64,000 nucleotides of DNA. It comes from Halorussus aquaticus. GTDB lineage: Archaea; Halobacteriota; Halobacteria; Halobacteriales; Haladaptataceae. This document shows, piece after piece, positions 2,551 to 41,821 of the stretch. Where the stretch lies: NCBI RefSeq assembly GCF_024218795.1, contig NZ_CP100400.1:3162001-3226000 (forward strand). The letters are read 5' to 3'. A program made the translations under genes and the position numbers. Position 1 is the first letter of the stretch. Each line of letters begins with the position of its first letter. The notes beneath the pieces were generated by a model. The model was not told the DNA's origin, did no database searches, and was given only the letters and a program-made list of their open reading frames with translations.

Positions 2551-3654
2551 ATGGACCCCCGAGTCAGAGAGCACGCCGAAATCGTCGTGGACCACTCTAC
2601 CGAAATCGAGGCCGGTGACAACGTCGTCGTCAGCGCTTCCTCGGCGGCGGAAGACCTGACGCTCGCGCTCTGTGAGACCATCGGCGAACGGGGTGGGCTT
2701 CCGTTCCACGTCTCGTTCCGCAACGACCGGACGCGCGCGGCGTTCCTCGGAGGCGTCTCGCCCGAGGACGTCGATACGCCCGACCACGAACTCGCGCTGG
2801 CGGAGGCCGCCGACGTGTGGATTCACGTCCGCGCCCACGACAACGTCGCCGAGATGAGCGCGGTTGAGAGCGACACCATGGCGGCCTACCGCAAGGCCCA
2901 ACTCCCCGTCCGCGAGGAGATTCTCGACACGACGTGGGTCCTCACCCAGTACCCCGCGCCCGCCGACGCGCAGAACGCCGAGATGAGTACCGAGGAGTAC
3001 GAGGAGTTCGTCTGGTCGGCCATCGGCAAGGACTGGGCGGCCCAGAAGGCCCATCAGGAGGAGATGGTGGAGATTCTCGACGCGGGCGAGGAGGTCCGCA
3101 TCGTCTCGGGCGAGACGACCGACCTCACCATGAGCATCGAGGGGATGACCACCATCAACGACCACGCGAAGAACAATCTCCCCGGCGGCGAGGTGTTCAC
3201 CGCGCCGGTCGCCGACTCCGTGGAGGGCGAAGTGCTGTTCGACAAGCCGCTCATCCACGAGGGTCACGAGGTCGAGGACGGCTACCTCCGGTTCGAGGGC
3301 GGCGAGGTCGTCGAGTACGGCGCCAGCAAGAACGAGGACGTGCTGGGGCAGGTCCTCGACACCGACGAGGGCGCTCGCCGACTCGGGGAACTCGGCATCG
3401 GGATGAACCGCGACATCGACCGGTTCACCTACAACATGCTGTTCGACGAGAAGATGGGCGACACCATCCACCTCGCGGTCGGCCGCGCGTACGACGAGTG
3501 CCTGCCCGAGGGCGAGACGGGCAACGAGAGCGCGGTCCACGTGGACATGATTGTGGACATGAGCGAGGACTCCTACATCGAAGTCGACGGCGAAGTCGTC
3601 CAGCGAAACGGGACGTTCCGATTCGAGGACGGGTTCGAGGAGAGCGAGGCCTGA
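2551..3654 (+). CDS. M29-family metallo-aminopeptidase
   Basis: Cytoplasmic leucyl-type aminopeptidase of the thermophilic M29 (AmpS/PepS) family, which removes N-terminal residues using two divalent metals. It runs from MDPRVREHAEIVV to FEESEA (367 aa, normal length). Conserved family blocks include the GETTDLTMSIEG region, LGIGMNRDIDRFT, GDTIHLAVGRAYDE and a late HVDMIVDM block carrying His/Asp metal ligands. The ATG at 2551 gives the canonical N-terminus. The last 44 bases of the gene, with the stop, are duplicated 169 bp downstream (see the repeat entries); the protein itself looks intact. Confidence 0.9.
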   Translation: MDPRVREHAEIVVDHSTEIEAGDNVVVSASSAAEDLTLALCETIGERGGLPFHVSFRNDRTRAAFLGGVSPEDVDTPDHELALAEAADVWIHVRAHDNVAEMSAVESDTMAAYRKAQLPVREEILDTTWVLTQYPAPADAQNAEMSTEEYEEFVWSAIGKDWAAQKAHQEEMVEILDAGEEVRIVSGETTDLTMSIEGMTTINDHAKNNLPGGEVFTAPVADSVEGEVLFDKPLIHEGHEVEDGYLRFEGGEVVEYGASKNEDVLGQVLDTDEGARRLGELGIGMNRDIDRFTYNMLFDEKMGDTIHLAVGRAYDECLPEGETGNESAVHVDMIVDMSEDSYIEVDGEVVQRNGTFRFEDGFEESEA

Positions 3655-3737
3655 GCGGAGCGAAGGCCTCGAACCGGAGCGGGGAGCGAAGCGACCCGCG
3701 GAGACGTAGGGTTCTTTTTCGTCGACGTTTTTCGAGG
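3611..3737. repeat. Direct repeat copy 1: aminopeptidase tail plus tandem hairpins and T-tract
   Basis: This 127-bp unit recurs at 3780-3906 with two mismatches that I can see. It contains the last coding bases of the aminopeptidase and its stop, then two hairpins. The first is 3646-3670 (GAGGCCT stem, loop GAGCGGAGCGA) and the second 3679-3699 (GCGGG stem, loop GAGCGAAGCGA). The two 11-nt loops differ at one base. A T5 tract at 3715-3719 and the arm GTCGACGTTTTTCGAGG follow. Confidence 0.92.
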
Positions 3738-3779
3738 AGAGTCGCCGAAGGCGAGTCGACGAGGAAAAAGGTCGGACGC

Positions 3780-3906
3780 GGACGTTCCGATTCGAGGACG
3801 GTTTCGAGGAGAGCGAGGCCTGAGCAGAGCGAAGGCCTCGAACCGGAGCGGGGAGCGAAGCGACCCGCGGAGACGTAGGGTTCTTTTTCGTCGACGTTTT
3901 TCGAGG
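3780..3906. repeat. Direct repeat copy 2: duplicated gene tail, stop, hairpins and T-tract
   Basis: This is the second copy of 3611-3737, offset by 169 bp. It carries a dead copy of the aminopeptidase C-terminal codons (stop equivalent at 3821-3823), which cannot be translated because no start precedes it. Between the copies (3738-3779) lies the right half of an imperfect palindrome, including hairpin TCGCC-GAA-GGCGA and an A5 tract followed by GGTCGGA. From 3907 to 4166 I see no gene, only increasingly AT-rich promoter-like DNA. Confidence 0.92.
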
Positions 3907-39254: not shown

Positions 39255-40499
39255 ATGGGACTGCAACAATCGGACTCGCTCGACGTCGCGCGCATCCGGG
39301 AGGACTTTCCGATTCTCCAGCGGGAGTTCGACGGCCAGCAGGTCGTCTATCTCGATAACGGCGCGACGAGTCAGAAGCCGAATCAGGTCATCGACGCCAT
39401 CGCCGACTACTACCGCAACTACAACGCTAACGTCCATCGCGGCATCCACCAGTTGAGCCAAGAGGCCTCCATCGCCTACGAGGAGGCCCACGACACTGTG
39501 GCCGAGTTCGTCGGCGCGGACGGCCGCGAGGAGATGATTTTCACGAAGAACACCACCGAGGCCGAGAACCTCGTGGCCTACGCGTGGGGCCTGAACGAAC
39601 TCGGGCCGGGCGACGAAATCGTCCTTACCGAGATGGAACACCACGCCTCGCTGGTGACGTGGCAACAGATCGGCGAGAAGACCGGCGCGGACGTGAAGTA
39701 CATCCCCGTGACCGAGGACGGCTACCTCGACATGGACGCCGCCGCCGAGATGATCACCGACGACACCGAGATGGTCAGCGTCCTCCACGTCTCGAACACG
39801 CTCGGGACCGTCAACCCCGTCTCGGAACTCGCCGACCTCGCCCACGACCACGACTCGTACATCTTCGTTGACGGCGCGCAGTCGGTGCCCAACCGTCCGG
39901 TGGACGTGAAGGACATCGACGCCGACTTCTACGCCTTCTCGGCCCACAAGATGGTCGGACCGACCGGCGTCGGCGGTCTCTACGGCAAGCGCGAAATCCT
40001 CGAAGCGATGGAGCCGTTCCAGTACGGCGGCGACATGATAAAGAAGGTCACCTTCGACGAGGCCAAGTGGAACGACCTGCCGTGGAAGTTCGAGGCCGGG
40101 ACGCCCGTCATCGCGCAGGGCATCGGCTTCGCCGAAGCGGTCGAGTACCTCGAAGACGTGGGCATGGACGCGATTCGCCGCCACGAGGAGACGCTGGCGG
40201 AGTACGCCCTCGACCGGATGGCCGAGTTCGACGACATCGAAATCTACGGCCCGACCGACCCGACCGACCGCGGCGGACTCGTCGCGTTCAACCTCGACGG
40301 GGTCCACGCCCACGACCTCGCCTCCATCATGAACGACCACGCGGTCGCCATCCGGGCGGGCGACCACTGCACCCAACCGCTCCACGACAAACTCGGCGTC
40401 GCGGCCTCTGCGCGGGCGTCGTTCTACCTCTACAACACCACCGACGAAATCGACGAACTGATGGACGCCATCGACAGCGCGCGGCAGTTGTTCGCCTGA
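39255..40499 (+). CDS. sufS: Cysteine desulfurase SufS
   Basis: 414-aa PLP enzyme that removes sulfur from cysteine for Fe-S cluster assembly. The PLP lysine is Lys232 in FSAHKMVGPTGVGGL and the persulfide-forming Cys372 lies in AGDHCTQPLHDKLG. It begins MGLQQSDSLDVARIREDFP. The sufU scaffold gene lies 1.4 kb downstream on the same strand, separated by an HD protein and a membrane protein. The last 27 bases of the gene are repeated 94 bp downstream around a palindrome (see repeat entry); the enzyme itself is complete. Confidence 0.94.
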   Translation: MGLQQSDSLDVARIREDFPILQREFDGQQVVYLDNGATSQKPNQVIDAIADYYRNYNANVHRGIHQLSQEASIAYEEAHDTVAEFVGADGREEMIFTKNTTEAENLVAYAWGLNELGPGDEIVLTEMEHHASLVTWQQIGEKTGADVKYIPVTEDGYLDMDAAAEMITDDTEMVSVLHVSNTLGTVNPVSELADLAHDHDSYIFVDGAQSVPNRPVDVKDIDADFYAFSAHKMVGPTGVGGLYGKREILEAMEPFQYGGDMIKKVTFDEAKWNDLPWKFEAGTPVIAQGIGFAEAVEYLEDVGMDAIRRHEETLAEYALDRMAEFDDIEIYGPTDPTDRGGLVAFNLDGVHAHDLASIMNDHAVAIRAGDHCTQPLHDKLGVAASARASFYLYNTTDEIDELMDAIDSARQLFA

Positions 40500-40606
40500 C
40501 AGTACGACTTTTCATCGACGTTTTGCGAGGGCGCGACTCGCGAGTCGCGCCCGAAGTAAAAGGTCGGACAGCGCGCGGCAGTTGTTCGCCTAATCCGACT
40601 CCTTTT
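40473..40606. repeat. Duplicated sufS tail flanking a 24-bp perfect palindrome
   Basis: Copy 1 (40473-40499, ending TGA) and copy 2 (40567-40593, ending TAA) differ at one base and are 94 bp apart. Between them are the arm ATCGACGTTTTGCGAGG, a perfect palindrome at 40529-40552 (GGGCGCGACTCG and its complement) and the arm TAAAAGGTCGGA. The arms match those of the element behind the aminopeptidase at 3721-3778. T-tracts follow each copy (40508-40512 and 40602-40606), so the duplication also doubles the terminator. Confidence 0.92.
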
Positions 40607-40632
40607 TCCGGCTTTCCTGTGTTTCGGGTGAT

Positions 40633-41319
40633 ATGAGACAGAAGGTGCGCGAGCGCGCCGAGACGTACTTCGACGGCGTTTCGGCGAGCAAATCGAGCCG
40701 AGGCTCGTCAGAGCTTCGCTCTGACGGCGTCTCTCCGTCTCACGACTGGCACCACGTCCGGCGAGTCGCCAGACTCGCCGAGACGCTCGCCGAAGAGACG
40801 GAACCGGGGAGGATAGATGAGGACGTGCTGTTCGCCGCGGTCTGGCTCCACGACATCGGCCGGGCGAAGGAGGACCGCGGCGAAATCGACGACCACGCCG
40901 AGTGGGGCGCGACGGAGGCGGGCGAAATCCTCCGCGACCTCGGTGCAGGCGACGAGACCGTCGAAGCGGTCCAGCACTGCATCCGGGCGCACCGCTACTC
41001 CAACGACGTGGAACCCGAGACCCGCGAGGCCGAAATCCTCTCCGACGCCGACAACCTCGACGCGCTCGGCGCGGTCGGAATCGCCCGGTGTTTCTCCTAC
41101 GGCGGCGAACTCGGCAGTCCGATGCACGACCCCGACCTGCCGCCGGAGGCCGACGAGACCGACGCCGGAGCGACGCAGTTCAACCACCTCCACAAGAAAA
41201 TCCTCGCGCTCCCCGAGCGAATGTACACCGAGGCTGGCCGGGAAGTCGCCGAGGAGCGCCGGGCGTACGTCGCCGACTTCGCCGAGCGGTTCGAGCGCGA
41301 GGTCGCGGGCGATGCCTGA
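40633..41319 (+). CDS. HD-domain phosphohydrolase with an in-frame tandem-hairpin insertion
   Basis: 228 aa. The HD metal site includes SHDWHHVRRVARLAETLAEE, WLHDIGRAKED and HCIRAHRY, typical of metal-dependent phosphohydrolases acting on nucleotides or cyclic nucleotides; the substrate is unknown. Between Asp14-Gly-Val and Asp31-Gly-Val-Ser-Pro-Ser lies a 17-residue Ser/Arg/Glu-rich segment that other family members are expected to lack. Removing those 51 bp restores YFDGVSPSHDWHH. The frame stays open, so the protein is probably still made. Start ATG at 40633. Confidence 0.85.
   Translation: MRQKVRERAETYFDGVSASKSSRGSSELRSDGVSPSHDWHHVRRVARLAETLAEETEPGRIDEDVLFAAVWLHDIGRAKEDRGEIDDHAEWGATEAGEILRDLGAGDETVEAVQHCIRAHRYSNDVEPETREAEILSDADNLDALGAVGIARCFSYGGELGSPMHDPDLPPEADETDAGATQFNHLHKKILALPERMYTEAGREVAEERRAYVADFAERFEREVAGDA
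40672..40730. mobile_element. 51-bp tandem-hairpin insertion inside the HD gene
   Basis: GACGGCGT occurs at 40672-40679 and again at 40723-40730, bounding a 51-bp unit. Inside are hairpin 1 at 40694-40707 (CGAGCC-GA-GGCTCG) and hairpin 2 at 40707-40725 (GTCAGAGC-TTC-GCTCTGAC). It has no open frame of its own. It resembles a target-site-duplicating miniature palindromic element. Confidence 0.7.
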
Positions 41320-41374
41320 AATCTGACAGTCAGGAATCGGCCGTGTTTTATCGCATCGGTCCAACCATCCGGAC

Positions 41375-41821
41375 ATGGTAGACTGGACTATCGCGTCCCT
41401 GATGGCGATTCACGTACTGATGGCCGTCCTCTGGACCGGCGGCTACCTCGTGACCGGGATGCTCGTCCTGCCCGCGGCCCGGCGCAACGACGCGCCCGGG
41501 TTCGCGCTGGACGTGCTGGACTCGCTGAAGTGGTTCGCGTTCGGCGGTATCGTGGTGATGGGCGCGTCGGGCGGCGGCGCGCTCTGGTACCTGTACGACA
41601 ACGAACTCCCCGAGGGGCTTCGCGGCACCGCACTCATCGCCATGATGACCCTCTACGGCGTCTTCGCGCTGACGAGCGTCTGGTCGTGGTACGAGACCAA
41701 GACCGCCCGCGAGGCGAGCGTCCGCGAACTCCCGACTCGACTGAAGATGGCGTTCCGGACGAACTCGCTGGTCGCCACCCTGCTGGTGGTGGACGCCGCG
41801 CTCATCGGCTACGCAGTGTAG
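41375..41821 (+). CDS. Four-helix membrane protein, CopD-like
   Basis: 148 aa with four transmembrane helices. HVLMAVLWTGGYLVTGMLVLPAA contains the His and Trp-Thr-Gly pattern seen in the CopD/YozB-type membrane family. It could bind haem or a metal within the membrane, but no further evidence exists. ATG at 41375 is the first in frame. It lies between the HD protein and sufU on the same strand. Confidence 0.72.
   Translation: MVDWTIASLMAIHVLMAVLWTGGYLVTGMLVLPAARRNDAPGFALDVLDSLKWFAFGGIVVMGASGGGALWYLYDNELPEGLRGTALIAMMTLYGVFALTSVWSWYETKTAREASVRELPTRLKMAFRTNSLVATLLVVDAALIGYAV

Follow-up and report, generated by a model that had tools for sequence, protein, structure and literature searches.

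A palindromic insert in a haloarchaeal HD phosphohydrolase gene is likely a copy of a two-hairpin repeat dispersed across Halobacteria

The 64,000-nucleotide stretch of Halorussus aquaticus DNA analysed here (the window) contains an HD-domain phosphohydrolase gene in which 51 bp lie between two direct repeats, raising the question of where this segment came from and what it means for the enzyme. The gene is a plus-strand ORF of 228 aa at 40633-41319 (Pfam HD PF01966, E 6.4e-17). The two copies of the repeat, GACGGCGT, lie at 40672-40679 and 40723-40730 with a spacing of 51, and the repeat extends to 11 bp if one mismatch is allowed. Comparison with empty sites and a covariance-model match place the element itself at 40678-40728, with the first six bases of the right-hand repeat inside the family-defined element. 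In the family's own orientation the element lies on the minus strand, where it reads GCCGTCAGAGC..., and on the plus strand it adds the residues VSASKSSRGSSELRSDG. A preliminary description, made from the sequence alone, had claimed an in-frame 51-bp tandem-hairpin insertion, and the unit is indeed exactly 51 bp long with no in-frame stop, contributing 17 codons to the ORF.

The insert corresponds to residues 15-31 of the protein. An AlphaFold2 model (27 sequences) has a mean pLDDT of 90.6, and only in residues 16-31, located between helices at 2-10 and 39-54, does pLDDT fall below 50. The insert is predicted to be a disordered loop within a confident fold, it would probably be exposed at the surface, and translation of the element would yield a short, flexible loop. 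The insert had been placed next to the metal site, which holds only approximately as the disordered loop stops a few residues short of the HD pair at 37-38.

Stems of 8 bp and 6 bp had been described for the two adjacent hairpins. Both hairpins exist, but the stronger stem has 9 bp: hairpin A (40706-40726), identified as an inverted repeat and from pair counts, consists of a perfect stem (arms 40706-40714 and 40718-40726) and a 3-nt loop. The 6-bp hairpin (40694-40699 with 40702-40707) can also be formed, but what recurs across the family as its second hairpin is another pairing, hairpin B (40680-40702; arms 40680-40685 and 40697-40702), which has five of its six pairs in the HD copy and whose region is also paired in an RNA fold of the HD-gene stretch. 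In a window this rich in GC, a single 9-bp stem is nothing unusual: there are nine, compared with two to eight in five simulated windows, and the folding z-scores of the stretch are modest (RNA -2.47, DNA -1.86). The case for an inserted element therefore depends on its recurrence and on relatives, and both the recurrence and the empty sites in relatives are above chance. A 25-nt element pattern has eight matches in the genome that holds the window (G000) and none for a backward control. A covariance model, R1, matches the HD site at 40674-40731 with 75.3 bits, the HD copy itself being in the model's training set. Elsewhere in the window, the half of the model that describes hairpin B has four partial matches at 3648-3868, in two pairs 169 bp apart.

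HD relatives were detected in 38 of 40 genomes. The segment is not shared across the family: alignment of orthologues from close relatives revealed a clean empty site. Among the 24 orthologues whose junction can be read, 21 lack the 17 extra residues and three (G000, G014, and G016) have them. The 21 empty orthologues come from two comparisons (15 and 6 loci); one (L036) carries an in-frame stop, and L038, an HD protein that is only distantly related and lacks the insert, falls outside the 24. Among 26 rows from named or MAG relatives, including Halorussus litoreus, ruber, marinus, halobius, amylolyticus, and salinisoli, the site is empty in all 17 that span it, and the other nine start past it. 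G000 and G014 are sisters with 100% support in a four-protein tree; elsewhere, including the placement of G016, support is weak save for a few pairs. At the HD site the loop of hairpin A is TTC in G000 and GAA in G014 and G016, and hairpin B shows a two-sided pair change between G000/G014 and G016.

The best-resolved cases share one pattern, in which 51 or 48 bp are added to an otherwise intact gene and the site is empty in relatives. In-frame insertion into unrelated protein genes is seen by empty sites for HD, HAD, and HMG-CoA reductase, and by length for PurD, where the G000 gene is 51 bp longer than its relatives' with a junction that is inexact at the base level. For further genes, in-frame insertion is indicated by Pfam assignments together with the reading frame. 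The HAD gene of G000 has exactly 51 bp more than those of G002 and G006, between two copies of GACGGCGT. This site is also occupied in G013, holds a shortened remnant in G004 and is not occupied in the sister G014, which is at odds with the tree. We favour exchange of alleles as the cause because the G014 residues adjoining the site look like those of empty alleles, although loss of the insert or its renewed gain may also account for the pattern. In the HMG-CoA reductase gene, G000 carries 48 bp that its sister species G014 lacks, so this insertion looks recent. A different Gly/Ser/Asp-rich insert with DGGQS-type repeats is found at the same HAD site in G007 (L245).

A genome-wide search for the hairpin pair, suggested in the preliminary description, found it again in both coding and non-coding places. 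The family consensus on the minus strand of the HD gene is RCCGTCAGAGC-nnn-GCTCTGACGAG, followed by hairpin B and often by RCC. What is conserved across the family differs between the hairpins: in A it is the stem, with a variable loop, and in B the loop, with a variable, co-varying stem. In 109 copies from fetched loci, which were picked by the hairpin A pattern and are hence selected for A and unselected for B, the hairpin B columns are paired in 67.4% of cells, compared with a mean of 46.5% (maximum 51.7%) after shuffling and at most 43.1% when the pairing is slid. R1 was built from 61 chosen copies (alignment A2), comprising 52 of the 55 copies with at least five hairpin B pairs and nine genic copies added by hand, and both R1 and the hairpin B counts of A2 are biased because rows were chosen for B pairing or added by hand.

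R1 has at least 43 matches at E<=1e-3 in G000 (150 of 5982 first-look candidates scored; histidine kinase type included) and at least one match in 102 of 116 sampled Halobacteria genomes. Across the phylum, 13 of 15 Halobacteria were matched and none of 85 other genomes, most of which have far fewer first-look candidates and do not form a matched control. The element pattern occurs up to 12 times per strand per genome, versus 0 to 2 times for a backward-pattern control. Rfam gave no match at the gathering score for 10 element loci, and for positions 40000-41500 of the window its single hit was weak, below threshold, and located outside the element. Copies spaced by 51 bp were seen in G016 (two) and G140 (three). 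Head-to-tail 51-bp units also occur in apparently coding stretches of L073 (1189 and 1240) and L329 (813-972). From these matches and the empty sites, we consider it likely that the HD insert belongs to a dispersed family of two-hairpin repeats, each about 51 bp long and apparently non-autonomous, with copies in and outside genes across Halobacteria.

Most copies of the family are non-coding, and the repeat could instead be primarily a transcribed hairpin that acts at gene ends, in termination or RNA stability, with the genic copies as accidental spill-over. The preservation of hairpin B pairing via two-sided changes would fit such a role, as would the A or T runs that flank some copies, the position of several copies about 60-95 bp past a stop codon within a larger recurrent sequence, and an excess of convergent (21) over divergent (11) neighbours in the 61 copies flanked on both sides by predicted genes. 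However, many copies are distant from predicted gene ends and no Rfam family matches, and a role at gene ends is in any case compatible with mobility, so we regard this as an unlikely primary explanation. The larger recurrent sequence, found in several Halorussus genomes, has CGACCTTTT...GGCAAAAGCTCGACCAAAAAC ahead of the hairpin and often lies shortly past a stop codon; the hairpin is embedded in it in L075, L076, L077, L102, L104, L106, and L107 (element at about 1110-1280).

A codon-based cut classified 14 of the 109 copies as genic, and at least five more are genic by their peptide (L061, L073, L088, L099, and L150). A second set of 60 fetched class loci (the top of the R1 class listing minus G000 and G008, the last ones spread over genomes) contains 10 genic copies, a count that leaves out L316, L325, and L330, which have the typical peptide and fall below the cut. 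The genic copies of this set are 51 bp (7), 48 bp (2), and 57 bp (1) long, and the non-genic copies 51 bp (44), 50 bp (3), 52 bp (2), and 49 bp (1). By R1, genic copies in G000 are mostly 48, 51, or 57 bp; the IlvB copy is 45 bp and two others are 53 bp, and in the 53-bp copy of L166 the reading frame is broken near the gene end.

The usual peptide of genic copies is approximately DGVSASEASxGSSxxRSDG. We located 17 genic ORFs in G000, of which nine, plus HD, were submitted to Pfam and two kinases followed later, with six left out. Frame -0 is used in nine of the ten proteins sent to Pfam (HD, HAD, HMG-CoA reductase, TrpE, a P-type ATPase, an ammonium transporter/P-II protein, DNA ligase, PurD, and a GHMP kinase), the tenth, IlvB, using +1. 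In the second class set it is also used in nine of ten genic copies, with the tenth in +0. Target preference accounts for part of this bias, as 86 of 143 GACGGY sites that lie in stop-free frames in the genes of the window favour -0. The observed 18 of 20 in frame -0 compares with 60% expected from GACGGY sites (P 0.0037) in a non-random draw that leaves out the histidine kinase copies (frame +0). Among 86 non-coding copies, frame +1 is open in 82, +2 in 79, -0 in 63, and -1 in 52, with mean charges of -1.9, +3.7, -1.5, and +2.5, respectively; the two remaining frames are open in just six and nine.

Under the dispersed-repeat explanation, element-carrying DNA would insert at GACGGY-like sites and leave short direct repeats behind. 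Genic copies may be kept if they land in the frame of the usual peptide, which would form an open, hydrophilic, usually acidic Ser/Gly/Asp loop tolerated at surface turns by a salt-in proteome, and copies with a stop, a frameshift, or added basic residues would be lost. The acidity is a tendency, with net charges of -4 for the HMG-CoA reductase insert, -3 for the HAD insert, and +1 for the HD insert. The enzyme probably carries the insert as a passenger. Domestication, in which the loop or an mRNA hairpin serves the gene, could account for an HD insert that is open and hairpin-forming in three species, its two-sided hairpin B change included, and for a HAD insert common to G000 and G013. It is nonetheless quite unlikely, given that the HD insert is missing from most congeners, that the HAD site of G004 is a shortened remnant, and that AlphaFold2 predicts the loop to be disordered.

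As to how such passenger copies spread, we lean tentatively, and with considerable doubt, towards a host-driven route in which hairpin DNA would be propagated via replication or repair with RCCGTC microhomology, in preference to a dedicated Y1 transposase. Spread of hairpin DNA by replication or repair would be consistent with the flanking repeats, the tandem arrays, and the TTC versus GAA loops of hairpin A. Neither the ends of the element nor the length of the duplication is fixed: direct repeats run from RCC to at least 8 bp, and some non-coding copies suit ends at other spacings.

Alternatively, these may be REP-like or IS200/IS605-derived miniature elements moved in trans by a Y1 (HUH) transposase. 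Hairpins at the insertion site are typical of such systems, haloarchaeal PATEs, which bear palindromes, are related to IS605 according to the accessible text of PMC3119063, and the G000 genome has two Y1_Tnp genes. The gene counts make this very unlikely: over 116 genomes (48 candidates scored per genome, giving minimum counts), the numbers of Y1_Tnp genes and of elements are uncorrelated (rho -0.09, p 0.35), the profile used (PF01797) representing Y1_Tnp in general with RAYT subgroups pooled. Twelve genomes have at least 10 copies and no Y1_Tnp match, and 12 others have Y1_Tnp and no copy. At the two Y1_Tnp loci of G000, the one match obtained (9.6 bits, E 0.09) is not a convincing element. 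A Y1 transposase as the agent is thus unsupported, as Y1_Tnp genes do not track copy number. That no dispersed DNA was inserted at all, with look-alikes arising by local slippage or by independent evolution of acidic linkers, is barely credible. In its favour, the first flanks are direct repeats, and D, G, S, and E are often abundant in haloarchaeal linkers. Against it, the same DNA, hairpin pairing included, occurs in non-coding places and class-wide, and this recurrence rules out local slippage as the sole origin.

The dispersed repeat had been likened in concept to Rickettsia palindromic elements (RPEs), a likeness that appears to hold for behaviour and not for membership. RPEs are described, in the portions available of PMC10969869 and PMC3733652, as multi-copy palindromic elements that occur in frame in unrelated protein genes and also in intergenic copies, and the halobacterial element is likewise multi-copy and palindromic, with in-frame genic and intergenic copies. 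Compared by description only, RPEs are about 150 bp long and form ten families in Rickettsia (PMC10969869, in the part available), whereas the halobacterial element is about 51 bp long, has two distinct hairpins, and is class-wide. CGTC-tagged REPs, which include RPE-4 and RPE-6 of R. conorii and have some copies inside genes, carry an unpaired CGTC tag, a stem of 8-9 bp, a loop of 4-5 nt, and usually a CCA tail, as given in the available text of PMC3733652. They resemble the halobacterial element in being short, hairpin-forming, and in part genic, and in having CGTC at one of their ends, but as far as that text describes them they are single hairpins. In the halobacterial element the CGTC pairs with GACG within the 9-bp stem of hairpin A, whose loop is 3 nt long, and hairpin A is followed by another hairpin of a different kind. 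Unlike RAYT-mobilised REPs, the element has no association with Y1_Tnp over the 116 genomes.

Among haloarchaeal repeats, the accessible account in PMC3119063 describes Haloquadratum PATEs, which are transposase-free, IS605-related, and have near-terminal palindromes, and SMRs of about 80-110 bp, which are bounded by terminal inverted repeats and are found mainly within other mobile elements. The element shares with them its haloarchaeal hosts and the lack of a transposase, and with PATEs the palindromes, but by that description it differs in length and in fixed-frame genic insertion, which is absent from the account. The word 'archaea' occurs twice in the available text of PMC3733652, both times in the reference list. 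No archaeal in-frame palindromic element appeared among the open-licence papers listed in literature searches, and an earlier mention elsewhere is possible.

In-frame palindromic elements have been described mainly from Rickettsia, where their movement and the tolerance of proteins towards them are still open questions. A class-wide archaeal counterpart makes these questions testable: at least one insertion appears recent, empty sites are clean, the many non-coding copies can serve as a reference, and the hosts are related to the genetically tractable Haloferax. Short acidic inserts in haloarchaeal proteins may represent inserted repeat DNA and not salt adaptation. It is plausible, if somewhat short of probable, that Halobacteria have a palindromic element of their own that lacks a recognisable transposase partner, continues to insert, and time and again places the same, mostly acidic peptide of 16-19 residues in core enzymes. 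In this reading, a kinase N-box duplication (NAVEHG...DAVEHG) may go back to an earlier insertion with the same layout that was retained and then multiplied through gene duplication.

The kinase sequences in question are histidine kinases (L172, L180, L181, and L182) in which R1 matches a 48-bp stretch at about 1501-1555 in each. In the plus frame this stretch reads NAVEHGSTSPRSxAHEDAVEHG in L172 and L180, with AVEHG duplicated and a two-hairpin layout like that of the element, and it lies within the HATPase_c domain in both of the two proteins tested. It is possibly an old insertion that has spread.

Two further features lie between the HD gene and the aminotransferase-like gene upstream of it (39255-40499). 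A 25-bp sequence at the 3' end of the latter (40473-40497) is repeated 94 bp downstream, at 40567-40591, immediately ahead of the HD gene. A perfect 10-bp hairpin at 40529-40552 (GGGCGCGACT...AGTCGCGCCC) is located between the two genes and is possibly a gene-end signal.
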